Shown one piece after another: positions 9,287-35,140 of a DNA stretch of 64,000 nt (position 1 is the first letter of the stretch; each line of letters opens with the position of its first letter). Under the pieces are notes generated by a model. The model saw only the letters and a list, made by a program, of their open reading frames with translations. It searched no databases and had not been told where the DNA came from. The position numbers and the translations under genes are program-made. Origin of the DNA: Acidobacteriota bacterium (GTDB lineage: Bacteria > Acidobacteriota > Vicinamibacteria > Marinacidobacterales > Marinacidobacteraceae); assembly GCA_009840635.1 (NCBI GenBank), contig VXNL01000094.1, positions 62,001 to 126,000 of the forward strand, read 5' to 3'.

Positions 9287-9658
9287 TTACTTCAGGAGCG
9301 GCACGACTCCGACGACGAATCCGACGATGACCGCCGTCTGCGCCAGCATCGCCCCGAACATCCACTTGAGGAGCCGCGCCTCGAGGATTGCCATATCCGC
9401 TTTGGTGGCGAAGCCGGCCAAGTCCTCTTTGGTGGCAAAGCCGGCCATGGTCTCGCGCATGTGCCGGAGTTCCTCCAGCACCGGCTGCAGGCTGCCGGCA
9501 ACAGTCTCCGAAGTCATGGCGTATATCCGCTGATCCGCAGTATGGGCCACTGCCGCATCCCATCCGCGCTCCACGAGCAGATGGAAGAGCGTGCCTTCCC
9601 GAGCCGGTTTCTCGGATGGCGCGGGGGCTGAGGGTTGCGGCGGGGGCTGGGTGGGCAT
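9287..9658 (-). CDS. Small coiled-coil protein with C-terminal membrane anchor
   Basis: A 123-residue protein: a Pro/Ala-rich N-terminus, a stretch mentioning RGWDAAVAHTADQ, a predicted helix (about 45-95) with a duplicated GFATKEDLAGFATKAD heptad-like repeat, then KWMFG and one transmembrane helix (about 98-120) ending VVPLLK. Small tail-anchored proteins with repeated ATKADL motifs followed by KWMFG are widespread, and resemble the DUF1640/CCDC90 type; their function is unknown. The start has a good Shine-Dalgarno (AGAGGAG about 8 bases upstream). It converges with the phosphohexomutase gene and its 5' side carries the 62-nt repeat. Confidence 0.78.
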   Translation of the reverse strand: MPTQPPPQPSAPAPSEKPAREGTLFHLLVERGWDAAVAHTADQRIYAMTSETVAGSLQPVLEELRHMRETMAGFATKEDLAGFATKADMAILEARLLKWMFGAMLAQTAVIVGFVVGVVPLLK

Positions 9659-9711: not shown

Positions 9712-9773
9712 CCAGACGTAATCCCGACCGTTTCTTCTCATTTCGGCGTGCAATGTGGAAAAGTCGAAGCGAA
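9712..9773 (-). repeat. 62-nt interspersed repeat, copy A
   Basis: Read on the minus strand, this stretch begins TTCGCTTCGACTTTTCCACA and ends TACGTCTGG. Its first 21 bases are identical, and roughly three quarters of the remainder match, to the plus-strand copy at 31877-31939. It lies 88 bases upstream of tRNA-Gly and 53 bases upstream of the minus-strand gene starting at 9658, oriented with that gene. Confidence 0.75.
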
Positions 9774-9861: not shown

Positions 9862-9937
9862 GCGGGCGTATCTCAGTTGGCAGAGTACGAGCTTCCCAAG
9901 CTCGGTGTCGCGGGTTCGAGCCCCGTCGCCCGCTCCA
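9862..9937 (+). tRNA. tRNA-Gly (anticodon CCC)
   Basis: The cloverleaf folds fully. A 7-bp acceptor GCGGGCG/CGCCCGC; D arm TCTC...GAGT; a 5-bp anticodon stem CGAGC/GCTCG enclosing loop TTCCCAA, anticodon CCC; a 5-base variable loop; T stem GCGGG/CCCGT with loop TTCGAGC; discriminator T; CCA encoded at 9935-9937. It decodes GGG. A TAGAAT hexamer at 9844-9849 is a plausible -10 box about 12 bases before the likely transcription start; no clear -35 is visible. Confidence 0.95.
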
Positions 9938-10003: not shown

Positions 10004-10398
10004 ATGACCGAAGCGCCTCCCGCCCCCGAACGGGGCGCCCGCTCGACCTGGATCGGGCAGGACACCCTGGTCGAAGGCAAGATCACGACCCGGGAGGACA
10101 TCTGCATCCAGGGGCGTCTGAAGGGGTCCGTGGAAAGCACCGCCGCGGTGCTGATTCCGGAGGGGGGCCAGGTCGAGGCCGACATCCTCGCCCGGAACGT
10201 GACCATTCATGGCCGGGTGACCGGCGACGTGGAGGCAGTCGAGAAGGCGGAAATCGGGGCGTCGGGAGTCCTTACCGGGGGAATCCTGGCCGCCACCGTG
10301 GTCGTCCATGCGGGAGCCACTTTCGAGGGAACGGTCCGGACTCGCAGCAAGCCGGAACCGAAACCCGAGAAGAAGACCCCGAAGGACGAGACGGCTGC

Positions 10399-10402
<4 letters not shown>
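10004..10402 (+). CDS. Bactofilin family cytoskeletal protein
   Basis: A 132-residue bactofilin: a short Pro-rich N-terminus, a central beta-helical domain (about 20-105) with the repeating small-hydrophobic pattern [34 protein letters not shown] and [11 protein letters not shown], and a charged Lys/Pro/Glu tail. Bactofilins polymerise without nucleotide and scaffold cell-wall enzymes. ATG at 10004 is preferred because an AAGAGG ribosome site lies six bases upstream; an in-frame ATG at 9965 would add [13 protein letters not shown] without a visible ribosome site, although that N-terminus also looks bactofilin-like. The stop overlaps the ald start (ATGA). Confidence 0.88.
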
Positions 10403-31628: not shown

Positions 31629-31703
31629 TGGTAGGCGCGGGCGGATTTGAACCGCCGACTTCTACCGCGTCAAGGTAGCGCTCTCCCCCTGAGCTACGCG
31701 CCT
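31629..31703 (-). tRNA. tRNA-Val (anticodon GAC)
   Basis: On the minus strand the gene folds as acceptor AGGCGCG/CGCGCCT, D arm GCTC...GAGC, anticodon stem CTACC/GGTAG around TTGACGC (anticodon GAC), variable loop AAGTC, T arm GGCGG/CCGCC with loop TTCAAAT, discriminator A and encoded CCA (31631-31629). It decodes GUC/GUU. A TAAACT hexamer 16-21 bases upstream (31719-31724) could be the -10 box. Confidence 0.95.
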
Positions 31704-31876: not shown

Positions 31877-31939
31877 TTCGCTTCGACTTTTCCACATCGC
31901 GGCCCGAAACGGGAAAAACGAGGGGCGAACTACGTCTAG
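31877..31939 (+). repeat. 62-nt interspersed repeat, copy B
   Basis: Begins TTCGCTTCGACTTTTCCACA and ends TACGTCTAG, matching copy A (9712-9773) with the first 21 bases identical and one single-base indel later. It ends seven bases before the ATG of the GspE-type gene and is oriented with that gene, pointing away from tRNA-Val. Confidence 0.75.
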
Positions 31940-31945
31940 AGCCTT

Positions 31946-34900
31946 ATGGAGGTTTCCAAGTTGCTTCACGACGAACGCCCGGCCACCGGGCTTCCAGCGG
32001 TGGCCCGCGATCGGCCCGCCGCAGACCCCGTCCCTCCAGGAGGCGCCGACAAGTCCCTGGTCCCGGCATCGGCCCACCCCGGACCCCGCGCCGTCCCGAA
32101 CCCGATTCCCGGCCTGCTGACCCTCCTCCGGCGCCAGGGGCGCATCCCCGCCGCGATGGCCAGCCGCGCCGGGGCTCTCGAGCGGCTGCCTCCGCCGCGA
32201 CACGAGGCCGCGCTGGTGGCCGAGGGAATCCTCTCGGAAGAGGACATCGCGCAGGCAGTCGCGCAGGACGCCGGACTCCCTTTTCGGGCGATCAACCCCC
32301 TGGAACTCAACCCGGAGGTCGTCACCGGCGCTCTCCCGGCGCCGTTCGCCCGCCGGCACACCATCTGCGCCCTCGCCAGGGATGCGCGCACCCTGACGGT
32401 GGCGGTCGCGAACCCCTTCGACCGCGGGGCCATCGCGGACCTCGAACGGTATCTGGGGGTCCGGGTACAGGTCGTGGTCGCGACCCGTTCGGACATCGAG
32501 GGGATCAACGGCAGCCTCTACAACCTGCGGACCTCGCTGCGGGCTGCGGAAACCGAGTTGACCCACGACCACGGCGAGCACGCCGATCCGCCCGCGGCGG
32601 ACCAGGAGTTCGTTTCGGGGTCGGAGGCCGCCGGCGATCTGGAGCCCACCACCCGCCCGGTCGTAGCCGCTCTCGACAGCATCCTCCATCAGGCGTTCGA
32701 GCACCGCGCCTCGGACATCCACCTCGAACCCAAGCGCGACCACGCCCTCGTGCGTTTTCGGGTGGACGGCGTGCTGCGGACCATGCACAGCTTTCCCCGC
32801 ATCGTGTACCTGGCCGTGGTCAGCCGTCTCAAGATGCTCAGCGGGCTCGACATCGCCGAAAAGCGCCGTCCCCAGGACGGCCGCATCAAGCGCATCGAAT
32901 CGGAGAAGGAGATCGAGTTGCGGGTCTCGACCCTCCCGACCGTCTTCGGCGAAAAGGCGGTGCTACGGGTGTTCGACCCGGCGGCCCTGGTCTCGTCGCT
33001 CGAACAACTCCGGCTGGCTGAAGACGAGGAACAGCGGCTCCGCCAGATGCTGAGCCGCCGGGAAGGGCTGCTCCTGGTCACCGGTCCCACCGGAAGCGCC
33101 AAGACCACGACGCTCTATTCGGTGCTCCGGCACGTCGCGACGCCCGAGGTGAACGTCGTGACGATCGAAGACCCGGTGGAGTTGGTCTTTCCGCCGCTCA
33201 GCCAGGTACAGGTGAATCCCCGCATCCGGTTCTCGTTTGCGGCCGCCATCCGCAGCGTCCTCCGCCAGGATCCGGACATCCTCATGGTGGGCGAGATCCG
33301 GGACGCCGAAACGGCGGAAATGGCGGTGCAGGCCGCGCTGACCGGACACCTCGTCCTCTCGACCCTCCACACGAACGACGCCCCCGGCGCCATCACCCGC
33401 CTCGCCGACCTCGGCGTGCCGCGCTTTTTGATCGGCACCACGCTGGTGGGCGTCGTCGCCCAGCGGCTCGTCCGCACCATCTGCCGCGGCTGCGGCCGTG
33501 AGACCACCGTCTCCACCGGGGAAGCGGAGACCCTGTCAGCCCGCGAGGTGGCCGGACGAGCGGTCCGGGTGGGCACGGGCTGTGCGCGGTGCCGCGACAC
33601 CGGCTACCAGGGGCGGCGGGCCGTCTTCGAGATCCTGCCCATCGATTCCCTGGCGGCCGCCGAAATCCTGGGCGGCTGCACCGCGGAGGATCTCACCCGC
33701 TCCGCACGCCGCCGGGGCGTCCGGAGCCTCCGCCAGGCCGCAGTGCGCCTGCTGCTACAAGGAGAGACCACCGTCACCGAGGTGATTCGGGTGACGGGCG
33801 CCGGCGCGGATCCGGGACTCTTCGGTGATCTGCCCGAGCCGCCCGCTACCGCCCACCGGCCGCGCGCCGGCTCAGAAACCGAGCGCCCGGCTGATCAACA
33901 GGAGCAGCGCCGGGATCCCGTAGAACACCACGATCACGTAGCCGACCGCGAGACTCCGGTTCGCGACCGCGATGTCCGCAAGCCGGCGCGCCGCGGCGAG
34001 CGGGACCTGCCGGATCCGGGAAACCGGGTAGACCATCAGGATCCCGACCAGGTTGAACAGGAGGTGGACGACCGCCAACTGGAACCCCCAGTGGGCGTTG
34101 GGGCCGGAAGCCGCGAGCGCGGCAAGGAAAGCCGTAACCGTCGTTCCCACGTTGGCGCCGAGGGTGACCGGAAAAGCGTCGTCGAGGAGCAGGAGCCCGG
34201 CTCCCGCGAGCGGGACCAGCATCGAAGTGGTGATCGAGCTGGACTGGACGAGAACGGTGACGACGGCCCCCGCTCCCATGGCCAGGACTGCGTGACGGCC
34301 GAGCACCCGGTGGAGGACAGCCTCGCCCCGGCCCGCGGAAATGCTCTTCAGGGTGCGGACGAGCAGCCCGAGGGCCACGACCAGCAGCACGACCGAGATG
34401 ACGGCCAGGAGCGCGGCAGCCGCCTCGTCGGAGCCGGTCACGAGGCCTGTGAACCACTGGATCGGTATGGGAACCAGCTCGATGATGCCCTTGAGGGGAC
34501 TCTCGTAGTCGATGCCGGTTCCGAGCAGACCCCCGAACTGCGCGGAAACCGCGCCGGAGAGGCGCGCCAGGAACCCCGTCGCGATTTCGAGCGGCAGGAG
34601 GATGGCCACCGCGATCAGGTTGAACATGTCGTGGCAGGTGGCCACCTCGAAGGCCCGCCGCAGTTCCTTCCCGTCCCGCAGGTGTCCGAGCGCGGCGATC
34701 GAGTTGGTGACCGTGGTGCCGATGTTGGCGCCCATCACCATGGGGATGGCGTGTTCGAACGGCAGCGGGGACTCGGGGGCGGCGACCAGTCCCACGATCA
34801 GCGAACTCGTGACCGAGGAACTCTGGACCAGCGTCGTGGCCAGGATCCCGATGATGAGTCCCACGAAGGGGTTCGCCGAAGCCTGGAAGAAGCCGTCGAG

Positions 34901-35140
34901 GAGCCCGGAACCGAGGCCCTTGAATCCCTCCCCCAGGCCGTCGATCGCCCCCAGGAACAGGACGAAGAGCAGAACCAGTCCCGCGAAGCGCGGCAACTGG
35001 GCGAACCGGCTCCCGCCGGCCTCGCGTCCGGGTTCCATCATGCCGCCCCCCGACGGATTCCCGGTGCGGGAGGGGGCAGCGAATCCACCGGGCAACCGGA
35101 AGGCTCCGCGCCGGCGTTTCGCTTCGTCATGGATGACTGA
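31946..35140 (+). CDS. GspE/PilB-type secretion ATPase; frame continues 1.3 kb past the domain end
   Basis: ATPase that powers type II secretion or type IV pilus assembly. Recognisable protein occupies roughly residues 1-630 (to about 33830). T2SSE N-domain (LPPPRHEAALVAEGILSEED, NPFDRGAIADLERYLG); ATPase core with Walker A GPTGSAKTTTLYSVL (Ala in place of the usual second Gly), Asp box MVGEIRDAETAEMAVQAA, His box STLHTNDA; a tetracysteine zinc site (CRGCGRE, CARCRDTGYQGRRAVFEI); and end block TTVTEVIRVTG. A stop would be expected soon after, but none occurs in frame until 35138-35140. The last 430 or so codons therefore read antisense through the Na/Pi cotransporter gene and are Arg/Asp/Pro-rich without a recognised domain. 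A frameshift near 33800-33870 is the simplest explanation. Other secretion genes are absent from the window. Confidence 0.8.
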   Translation: MEVSKLLHDERPATGLPAVARDRPAADPVPPGGADKSLVPASAHPGPRAVPNPIPGLLTLLRRQGRIPAAMASRAGALERLPPPRHEAALVAEGILSEEDIAQAVAQDAGLPFRAINPLELNPEVVTGALPAPFARRHTICALARDARTLTVAVANPFDRGAIADLERYLGVRVQVVVATRSDIEGINGSLYNLRTSLRAAETELTHDHGEHADPPAADQEFVSGSEAAGDLEPTTRPVVAALDSILHQAFEHRASDIHLEPKRDHALVRFRVDGVLRTMHSFPRIVYLAVVSRLKMLSGLDIAEKRRPQDGRIKRIESEKEIELRVSTLPTVFGEKAVLRVFDPAALVSSLEQLRLAEDEEQRLRQMLSRREGLLLVTGPTGSAKTTTLYSVLRHVATPEVNVVTIEDPVELVFPPLSQVQVNPRIRFSFAAAIRSVLRQDPDILMVGEIRDAETAEMAVQAALTGHLVLSTLHTNDAPGAITRLADLGVPRFLIGTTLVGVVAQRLVRTICRGCGRETTVSTGEAETLSAREVAGRAVRVGTGCARCRDTGYQGRRAVFEILPIDSLAAAEILGGCTAEDLTRSARRRGVRSLRQAAVRLLLQGETTVTEVIRVTGAGADPGLFGDLPEPPATAHRPRAGSETERPADQQEQRRDPVEHHDHVADRETPVRDRDVRKPARRGERDLPDPGNRVDHQDPDQVEQEVDDRQLEPPVGVGAGSRERGKESRNRRSHVGAEGDRKSVVEEQEPGSRERDQHRSGDRAGLDENGDDGPRSHGQDCVTAEHPVEDSLAPARGNALQGADEQPEGHDQQHDRDDGQERGSRLVGAGHEACEPLDRYGNQLDDALEGTLVVDAGSEQTPELRGNRAGEARQEPRRDFERQEDGHRDQVEHVVAGGHLEGPPQFLPVPQVSERGDRVGDRGADVGAHHHGDGVFERQRGLGGGDQSHDQRTRDRGTLDQRRGQDPDDESHEGVRRSLEEAVEEPGTEALESLPQAVDRPQEQDEEQNQSREARQLGEPAPAGLASGFHHAAPRRIPGAGGGSESTGQPEGSAPAFRFVMDD
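33872..35041 (-). CDS. Na/Pi cotransporter family protein
   Basis: A 389-residue membrane protein with two inverted-topology halves, each with the PNaS signature: TTLVQSSSVTSSLIVGL and GANIGTTVTN in the first half (about 70-120), VTVLVQSSSITTSMLVPLAG and GANVGTTVTAFLAALA in the second (about 265-320). It is expected to couple sodium to phosphate uptake or efflux. No PhoU-like C-terminal domain is present. ATG at 35041 is preferred over the TTG at 35095, which would add 18 residues of low-complexity sequence. The plus-strand frame of the secretion ATPase gene runs through it in antisense. Confidence 0.9.
   Translation of the reverse strand: MMEPGREAGGSRFAQLPRFAGLVLLFVLFLGAIDGLGEGFKGLGSGLLDGFFQASANPFVGLIIGILATTLVQSSSVTSSLIVGLVAAPESPLPFEHAIPMVMGANIGTTVTNSIAALGHLRDGKELRRAFEVATCHDMFNLIAVAILLPLEIATGFLARLSGAVSAQFGGLLGTGIDYESPLKGIIELVPIPIQWFTGLVTGSDEAAAALLAVISVVLLVVALGLLVRTLKSISAGRGEAVLHRVLGRHAVLAMGAGAVVTVLVQSSSITTSMLVPLAGAGLLLLDDAFPVTLGANVGTTVTAFLAALAASGPNAHWGFQLAVVHLLFNLVGILMVYPVSRIRQVPLAAARRLADIAVANRSLAVGYVIVVFYGIPALLLLISRALGF

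Follow-up and report, generated by a model that had tools for sequence, protein, structure and literature searches.

A composite promoter with a DnaA box may tie type IV pilus and DNA-uptake genes to the replication initiator in one genus of Acidobacteriota

The replication initiator DnaA, whose binding sites have the consensus TTWTNCACA, is known to regulate a few promoters locally, most of them promoters of replication genes. Competence responds to replication stress in some bacteria, and several competence regulons have a dedicated switch of their own (ComK, ComX/SigX boxes, or CRP-S with Sxy). Promoters read by ECF sigma factors are of the GGAAC-N16/17-CGTC type. A regulon devoted to pili and DNA uptake and marked by DnaA boxes is not known to us: a full-text search of the literature on these subjects in combination found none, and literature on pili of sponge Acidobacteriota or on ECF-controlled competence yielded nothing on point. 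The closest described cases are the mioC and dnaA promoters of Escherichia coli and the DnaA regulon of Bacillus subtilis, which have a consensus DnaA box at the promoter; the R5 box of mioC is the 9-mer TTTTCCACA (PMC5835720). In B. subtilis, DnaA is also linked to Rok, a repressor of the competence gene comK (PMC11841835).

The module that we describe here, from an acidobacterial genome and its congeners, shares a consensus DnaA box with the E. coli and B. subtilis promoters, and that box is the same 9-mer as in mioC. Unlike them, it has a single box at a fixed, activator-like position in about 13 promoters of one functional regulon; the box sits in a longer conserved block coupled to an ECF-like core, and the targets are genes for pili and DNA uptake rather than replication. 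At the Rok sites of B. subtilis DnaA associates indirectly, through Rok and without DnaA boxes (PMC11841835), whereas every promoter described here carries a consensus box. The core, GGGAA-N17-CGTCT, resembles ECF promoters but has GGGAAAAA in place of GGAAC, is coupled to the upstream block, and yielded no cognate ECF factor. All of the evidence comes from sequence comparison of draft metagenome-assembled genomes.

The window (the whole 64-kb stretch of DNA that was analysed) holds two copies of the module. The 21-nt block TTCGCTTCGACTTTTCCACAT is identical at 9753-9773 on the minus strand (copy A) and at 31877-31897 on the plus strand (copy B), and the similarity extends in both to ACGTCT, at 9714-9719 and 31932-31937, which bears out both the shared 21 bases and the repeat length of about 62 nt reported by the first-pass annotation. 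Dinucleotide shuffles give an expectation of 0 matches to this block, even when three mismatches are allowed.

In copy A the DnaA box TTTTCCACA, the same 9-mer that the genus carries as DnaA boxes at oriC, occupies 9754..9762 (minus strand) within the block, which in the site logo reaches about 9 bp further upstream (GTGCAC-N-). The predicted −35 element, placed by comparison with the consensus GGGAA, is GAGAA at 9735..9739, and the predicted −10 element is the ACGTCT at 9714..9719, 34 nt past the box and with 16 nt from GAGAA to CGTCT. In copy B, on the plus strand, the box is at 31888..31896, the predicted −35 element GGGAA (likewise placed from the consensus) at 31911..31915, and the predicted −10 element ACGTCT at 31932..31937, 35 nt past the box and with 17 nt from GGGAA to CGTCT; the spacer of copy A is thus 1 nt shorter.

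Copy A leads into a minus-strand gene (9287..9658) for a 123-aa protein with a Pro-rich N-terminus, a coiled coil bearing ATKADM and ATKEDL, and a C-terminal membrane segment; it has no Pfam match and belongs to an expanded paralog family. Copy B precedes a plus-strand gene (31946..35140) for a PilB/GspE-type assembly ATPase with MshEN and T2SSE domains. This pilB gene may start at ATG 31946, 8 nt past CGTCT, or at TTG 31961, which lies 23 nt past CGTCT behind GGAGG and is favoured by the orthologs. ARAGORN places a tRNA-Gly(CCC) gene beside copy A (9862-9937, plus strand) and a tRNA-Val(GAC) gene beside copy B (31629-31703, minus strand), and each copy points away from its tRNA and into a gene, as had been described. 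Directly 3' of the tRNA-Gly gene lie a bactofilin-like gene (PF04519, window positions 10004-10402) and then alanine dehydrogenase.

The first-pass annotation had proposed a genome-wide search with tabulation of the flanking genes, and this search returned about 13 copies in the organism's own genome, before pilus/DNA-uptake genes and genes for small membrane proteins. Across its 3.58 Mb (110 contigs), TTCGACTTTTCCACA has 12 exact matches and one with a single mismatch, giving 13 sites; an additional match with two mismatches lacks the module architecture and is attributed to chance, and a reversed control pattern gives 1 match. The seven other genomes of the genus contain 5-21 copies of CGACTTTTCCACA each, for 101 sites in all eight genomes, and the two sister genera of the family contain zero. 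Because an exact 13-mer served to collect the sites, its invariance is conditioned on the search. A scan of 84,980 species genomes for the box plus ACGTCT recovered 33 loci, all in seven Acidobacteria metagenome-assembled genomes that we take to be the congeners. Matches to CGACTTTTCCACA in two class-level genomes (G034 and G038) do not show the promoter architecture, and we treat them as unrelated; matches in viral contigs, whose GC content and context differ, we ascribe to chance. At least one member of the genus appears to be a marine-sponge symbiont, apparently from Aplysina aerophoba (PMC5649159).

The adjacency of both window copies to a tRNA gene had also suggested a mobile element or dispersed repeat inserting next to such genes. 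That suggestion is refuted by the distribution, because a tRNA is found within 300 nt of only 9 of the 101 sites, and a single orthologous pilB/tRNA-Val locus accounts for seven of these nine, the others being copy A and one site in G001. Moreover, the flanks of the sites are unrelated, their orientation and spacing to genes are fixed, and orthologous positions are conserved across species; we regard this explanation as having a vanishingly small chance of being correct, and proximity of the module to tRNA genes is incidental. Comparison within five ortholog groups gives 96-98% identity for the box and 40-58% for the upstream flanks (40-54% in the region 40-80 nt upstream).

The module spans about 65 bp: GTGCAC-N-TTCGCTTCGACTTTTCCACAWT, then GGGAAAAA, then CGTCT 17 nt after GGGAA. 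The logo of 87 sites reads KTGCA-N-B-TTCGCTTCGACTTTTCCACAWT, a spacer of about 13 nt, GYGGGAAAAAA, and CGTCT 17 nt past GGGAA, followed by R. The upstream block, about 29 bp long, ends in TTTTCCACA. Spacing from CACA to NCGTCT was measurable at 96 of the 101 sites, the other five being degraded or cut by contig ends; 87 sites have 35 nt, six have 46 nt, two have 34 nt and one has 36 nt. All six 46-nt sites are orthologs located between rsmD and coaD, with the extra 11 nt lying between the box and GGGAA, and an 11-nt insertion is one helical turn. Genes lie on the same strand directly downstream of the module everywhere except at the rsmD-coaD site, with gene starts taken from a simple codon-usage caller. 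It is near certain, judging from these alignments, that the two stretches in the window belong to a single type of composite promoter, and that this promoter defines a regulon shared across the genus.

In the own genome, a search allowing two mismatches found no variant inside TTTTCCACA except a chance match; with three mismatches, the own genome and one congener (G003) together gave one added site, which has one mismatch adjoining the box. Searched with at most one mismatch, the core GGGAAAAA-N11-TTNCGTCT has 9 matches in the own genome, 9/9 at box-bearing sites. The same pattern has 19 matches in G003, the new ones being one whose box lacks one base, one with a mismatch beside the box, and one without a box. 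A mis-spaced pattern (13 N for 11 N, 2 nt extra), which serves as an unplanned control, has no match in the own genome or G003, and the core promoter alone is near background level in the sister genera. At L231:1500 (G003:C58), a core copy, GAGAAAA...ACGTCT, stands without the upstream block and is possibly a relic.

The first-pass annotation had left open a functional leader or a promoter module, and of these the promoter is upheld by the 101 sites, their rigid spacing and their short distance to genes. A structured RNA leader or riboswitch-type element would draw on the complementarity between TTTTCC in the block and GGGAAAA in the core; the GGGAATT of the pilM group, however, breaks this only possible stem. 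The two window copies have folding z-scores of +1.7 and −0.1, no better than shuffles, and no Rfam match, and the likely pilB start codon follows the last conserved element, the −10, by only about 8-24 nt. The distance shift of 11 nt is likewise that of a DNA-binding site. A leader is therefore exceedingly improbable.

The 9-mer TTTTCCACA fits the DnaA box consensus. The dnaA-dnaN gap (both gene identities checked with Pfam) contains it at 21-22 nt intervals, three times in the own genome and in G002 and twice in G003. Of its 18 occurrences in the own genome, 13 are at module promoters, 3 at oriC and 2 elsewhere. The chance of meeting the exact box in a shuffled 29-mer of the same composition is P = 3e-4. 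A search for a DnaA paralog gave none, and a paralog as the regulator was accordingly rejected. The flank GCTTCGAC, which oriC lacks, equals the box in conservation, so DnaA alone cannot explain the site.

The same flank favours another reading of the regulon, in which the block is the site of a dedicated transcription factor and its match to a DnaA box is due to chance or secondary: the block, of about 29 bp, far exceeds the 9 bp of a DnaA box, and GCTTCGAC, on its left, is the part missing from oriC. Against this reading, the promoter box is exactly the oriC box of the genus, 16 of the 18 genomic copies of TTTTCCACA are at oriC or promoters, and, in the sister genus represented by G009, oriC box, comM-promoter box and DnaA reading helix all differ together. 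We consider a dedicated factor acting in place of DnaA unlikely. Binding of DnaA to the promoter boxes, by comparison, is a prediction that we hold with good confidence.

The G009 comparison is the strongest evidence for DnaA. In this genome no consensus box is found near dnaA, and the dnaA-dnaN gap holds TTTTCGACG-GG-TTTTCGACA. Upstream of comM, 35 nt separate TTTTCGACA from a following CCGTTG, the same register as in the TTTTCCACA-35-NCGTCT arrangement of the genus. Within the 1.04 Mb searched (about 30% of the genome, chosen partly for holding dnaA and comM), TTTTCGACA occurs in two places only, oriC and the comM upstream region. The DnaA recognition helix of G009 reads RKHST, compared with RDHST or RDHTT in this genus and in solved DnaA-DNA complexes. 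This Asp-to-Lys position corresponds to E. coli 433, in a stretch (432-435) that contacts bases (PMC5043019). The change is an unusual one at a highly conserved position. Reading helix, oriC box and comM box thus differ together, in a single genome and at a single promoter; in this sister genus the DnaA box appears to have moved to TTTTCGACA along with the change in the recognition helix. At the G009 comM site the −35 region does not match GGGAA, and the −10 region is the CCGTTG. In the other sister genus, represented by G008, the comM region keeps GGGAA-N17-CGTCT without a box, a core that is near background genome-wide in G008. Its DnaA has DPST for DHST in the recognition helix, and the contig ends about 265 nt after dnaA.

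The core promoter has the ECF-type form, with a GGAA-type −35 and a CGTC-type −10 element 16-17 nt apart, and on balance its sigma factor is probably of ECF type. The own genome has six ECF sigma genes, and no matching core promoter precedes any of them (0/6); ECF autoregulation is common, not obligatory. Attempts to identify the factor through autoregulated promoters or a phylogenetic profile of the six were unfruitful, and most of the six have orthologs in sister genera.

Taken as a composite promoter, the module suggests the following mechanism. DnaA would bind TTTTCCACA, centred near −52 (near −63 in the group with 11 additional nucleotides), positions that assume a transcription start about 7 nt after CGTCT. 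A second protein on the flanking GTGCACNTTCGCTTCGAC would act together with DnaA, and the two would assist initiation by an RNA polymerase holoenzyme of ECF type. Expression of the pilus and DNA-uptake genes would then track the amount of DnaA, its ATP state or its titration, and thereby the replication cycle or replication stress. Direct control of the type IV pilus/DNA-uptake regulon by DnaA, through this combination of DnaA, a second factor and an ECF-type core, is in our judgement likely.

DnaA could instead bind the box and repress, or the boxes could titrate DnaA, as at E. coli mioC, where the same TTTTCCACA box is known to mediate repression; 13 dispersed boxes could indeed titrate the protein. 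The box lies upstream of the −35 element with fixed one-turn phasing, however, which is the geometry of an activator and not of a blocking site, and the core promoter was not found without the box in the own genome. We judge repression or titration quite unlikely. Positions near −52 and −63 are ones used by activators upstream of −35. We lean moderately towards activation rather than repression because of this upstream placement and phasing.

The genes behind the module include pilB in 8 genomes, pilM-pilN-pilO-x-secretin in 7, an N-methyl prepilin with a PilY1-like protein in 7 (prepilin peptidase lies just upstream), and comM, followed by DUF309 and M23 genes, in 6. The other targets mostly encode small proteins of two kinds, both expanded in the genus. 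The first has a C-terminal membrane anchor, in some members with ATKxD coiled-coil motifs like those of DUF1640/CCDC90; the second has an N-terminal or central membrane segment and then a coiled coil. The first kind resembles DUF1640/CCDC90-like membrane coiled-coil proteins (PF07798; PMC4786415) in its [aliphatic]-ATK-x-[DE] motif and C-terminal anchor. Among the members tested, however, the E-value of one was 2e-6, which still falls short of the Pfam cut-off, and the second kind differs in the location of its membrane segment. Tandem duplicates of small coiled-coil membrane genes, with a promoter copy before each, occur at L098, L128, L133 and L165.

The rsmD-coaD site (6 genomes; e.g. L016:7748 and L088:3316), with its +11 spacing, faces into the 3' end of rsmD in antisense orientation. 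The −10 element of this site overlaps the rsmD stop codon, and 1-2 kb further on lies a conserved plus-strand ORF of about 300-370 aa without a Pfam match, with a membrane coiled-coil gene in 4 genomes.

Competence regulons with a dedicated switch likewise have a shared promoter motif before pilus and DNA-uptake genes including comM. The present regulon differs from them in its motif and probable regulator and in the large coiled-coil membrane protein family that it includes; its observed targets comprise neither comEC nor dprA, though the draft genomes may hide some members. Because those two genes are absent from the observed targets, the term competence rests here on comM plus pili, and the chances that the link is to natural transformation rather than to pili alone are evenly balanced.

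The module suggests a regulatory connection between the control of DNA replication and DNA uptake in this acidobacterial group. It would be the first regulon for this group of uncultured bacteria, and it would link type IV pili with a so far unexplained family of coiled-coil membrane proteins. The covariation of DnaA reading helix, oriC box and promoter box amounts to a natural experiment, and makes the claim for DnaA testable in vitro. In its fullest form, to which we give about an even chance on these comparisons, DnaA would in one Acidobacteriota genus serve as master regulator, acting directly on a type IV pilus/DNA-uptake regulon that is switched by the state of replication, with a box that co-evolves with DnaA itself.
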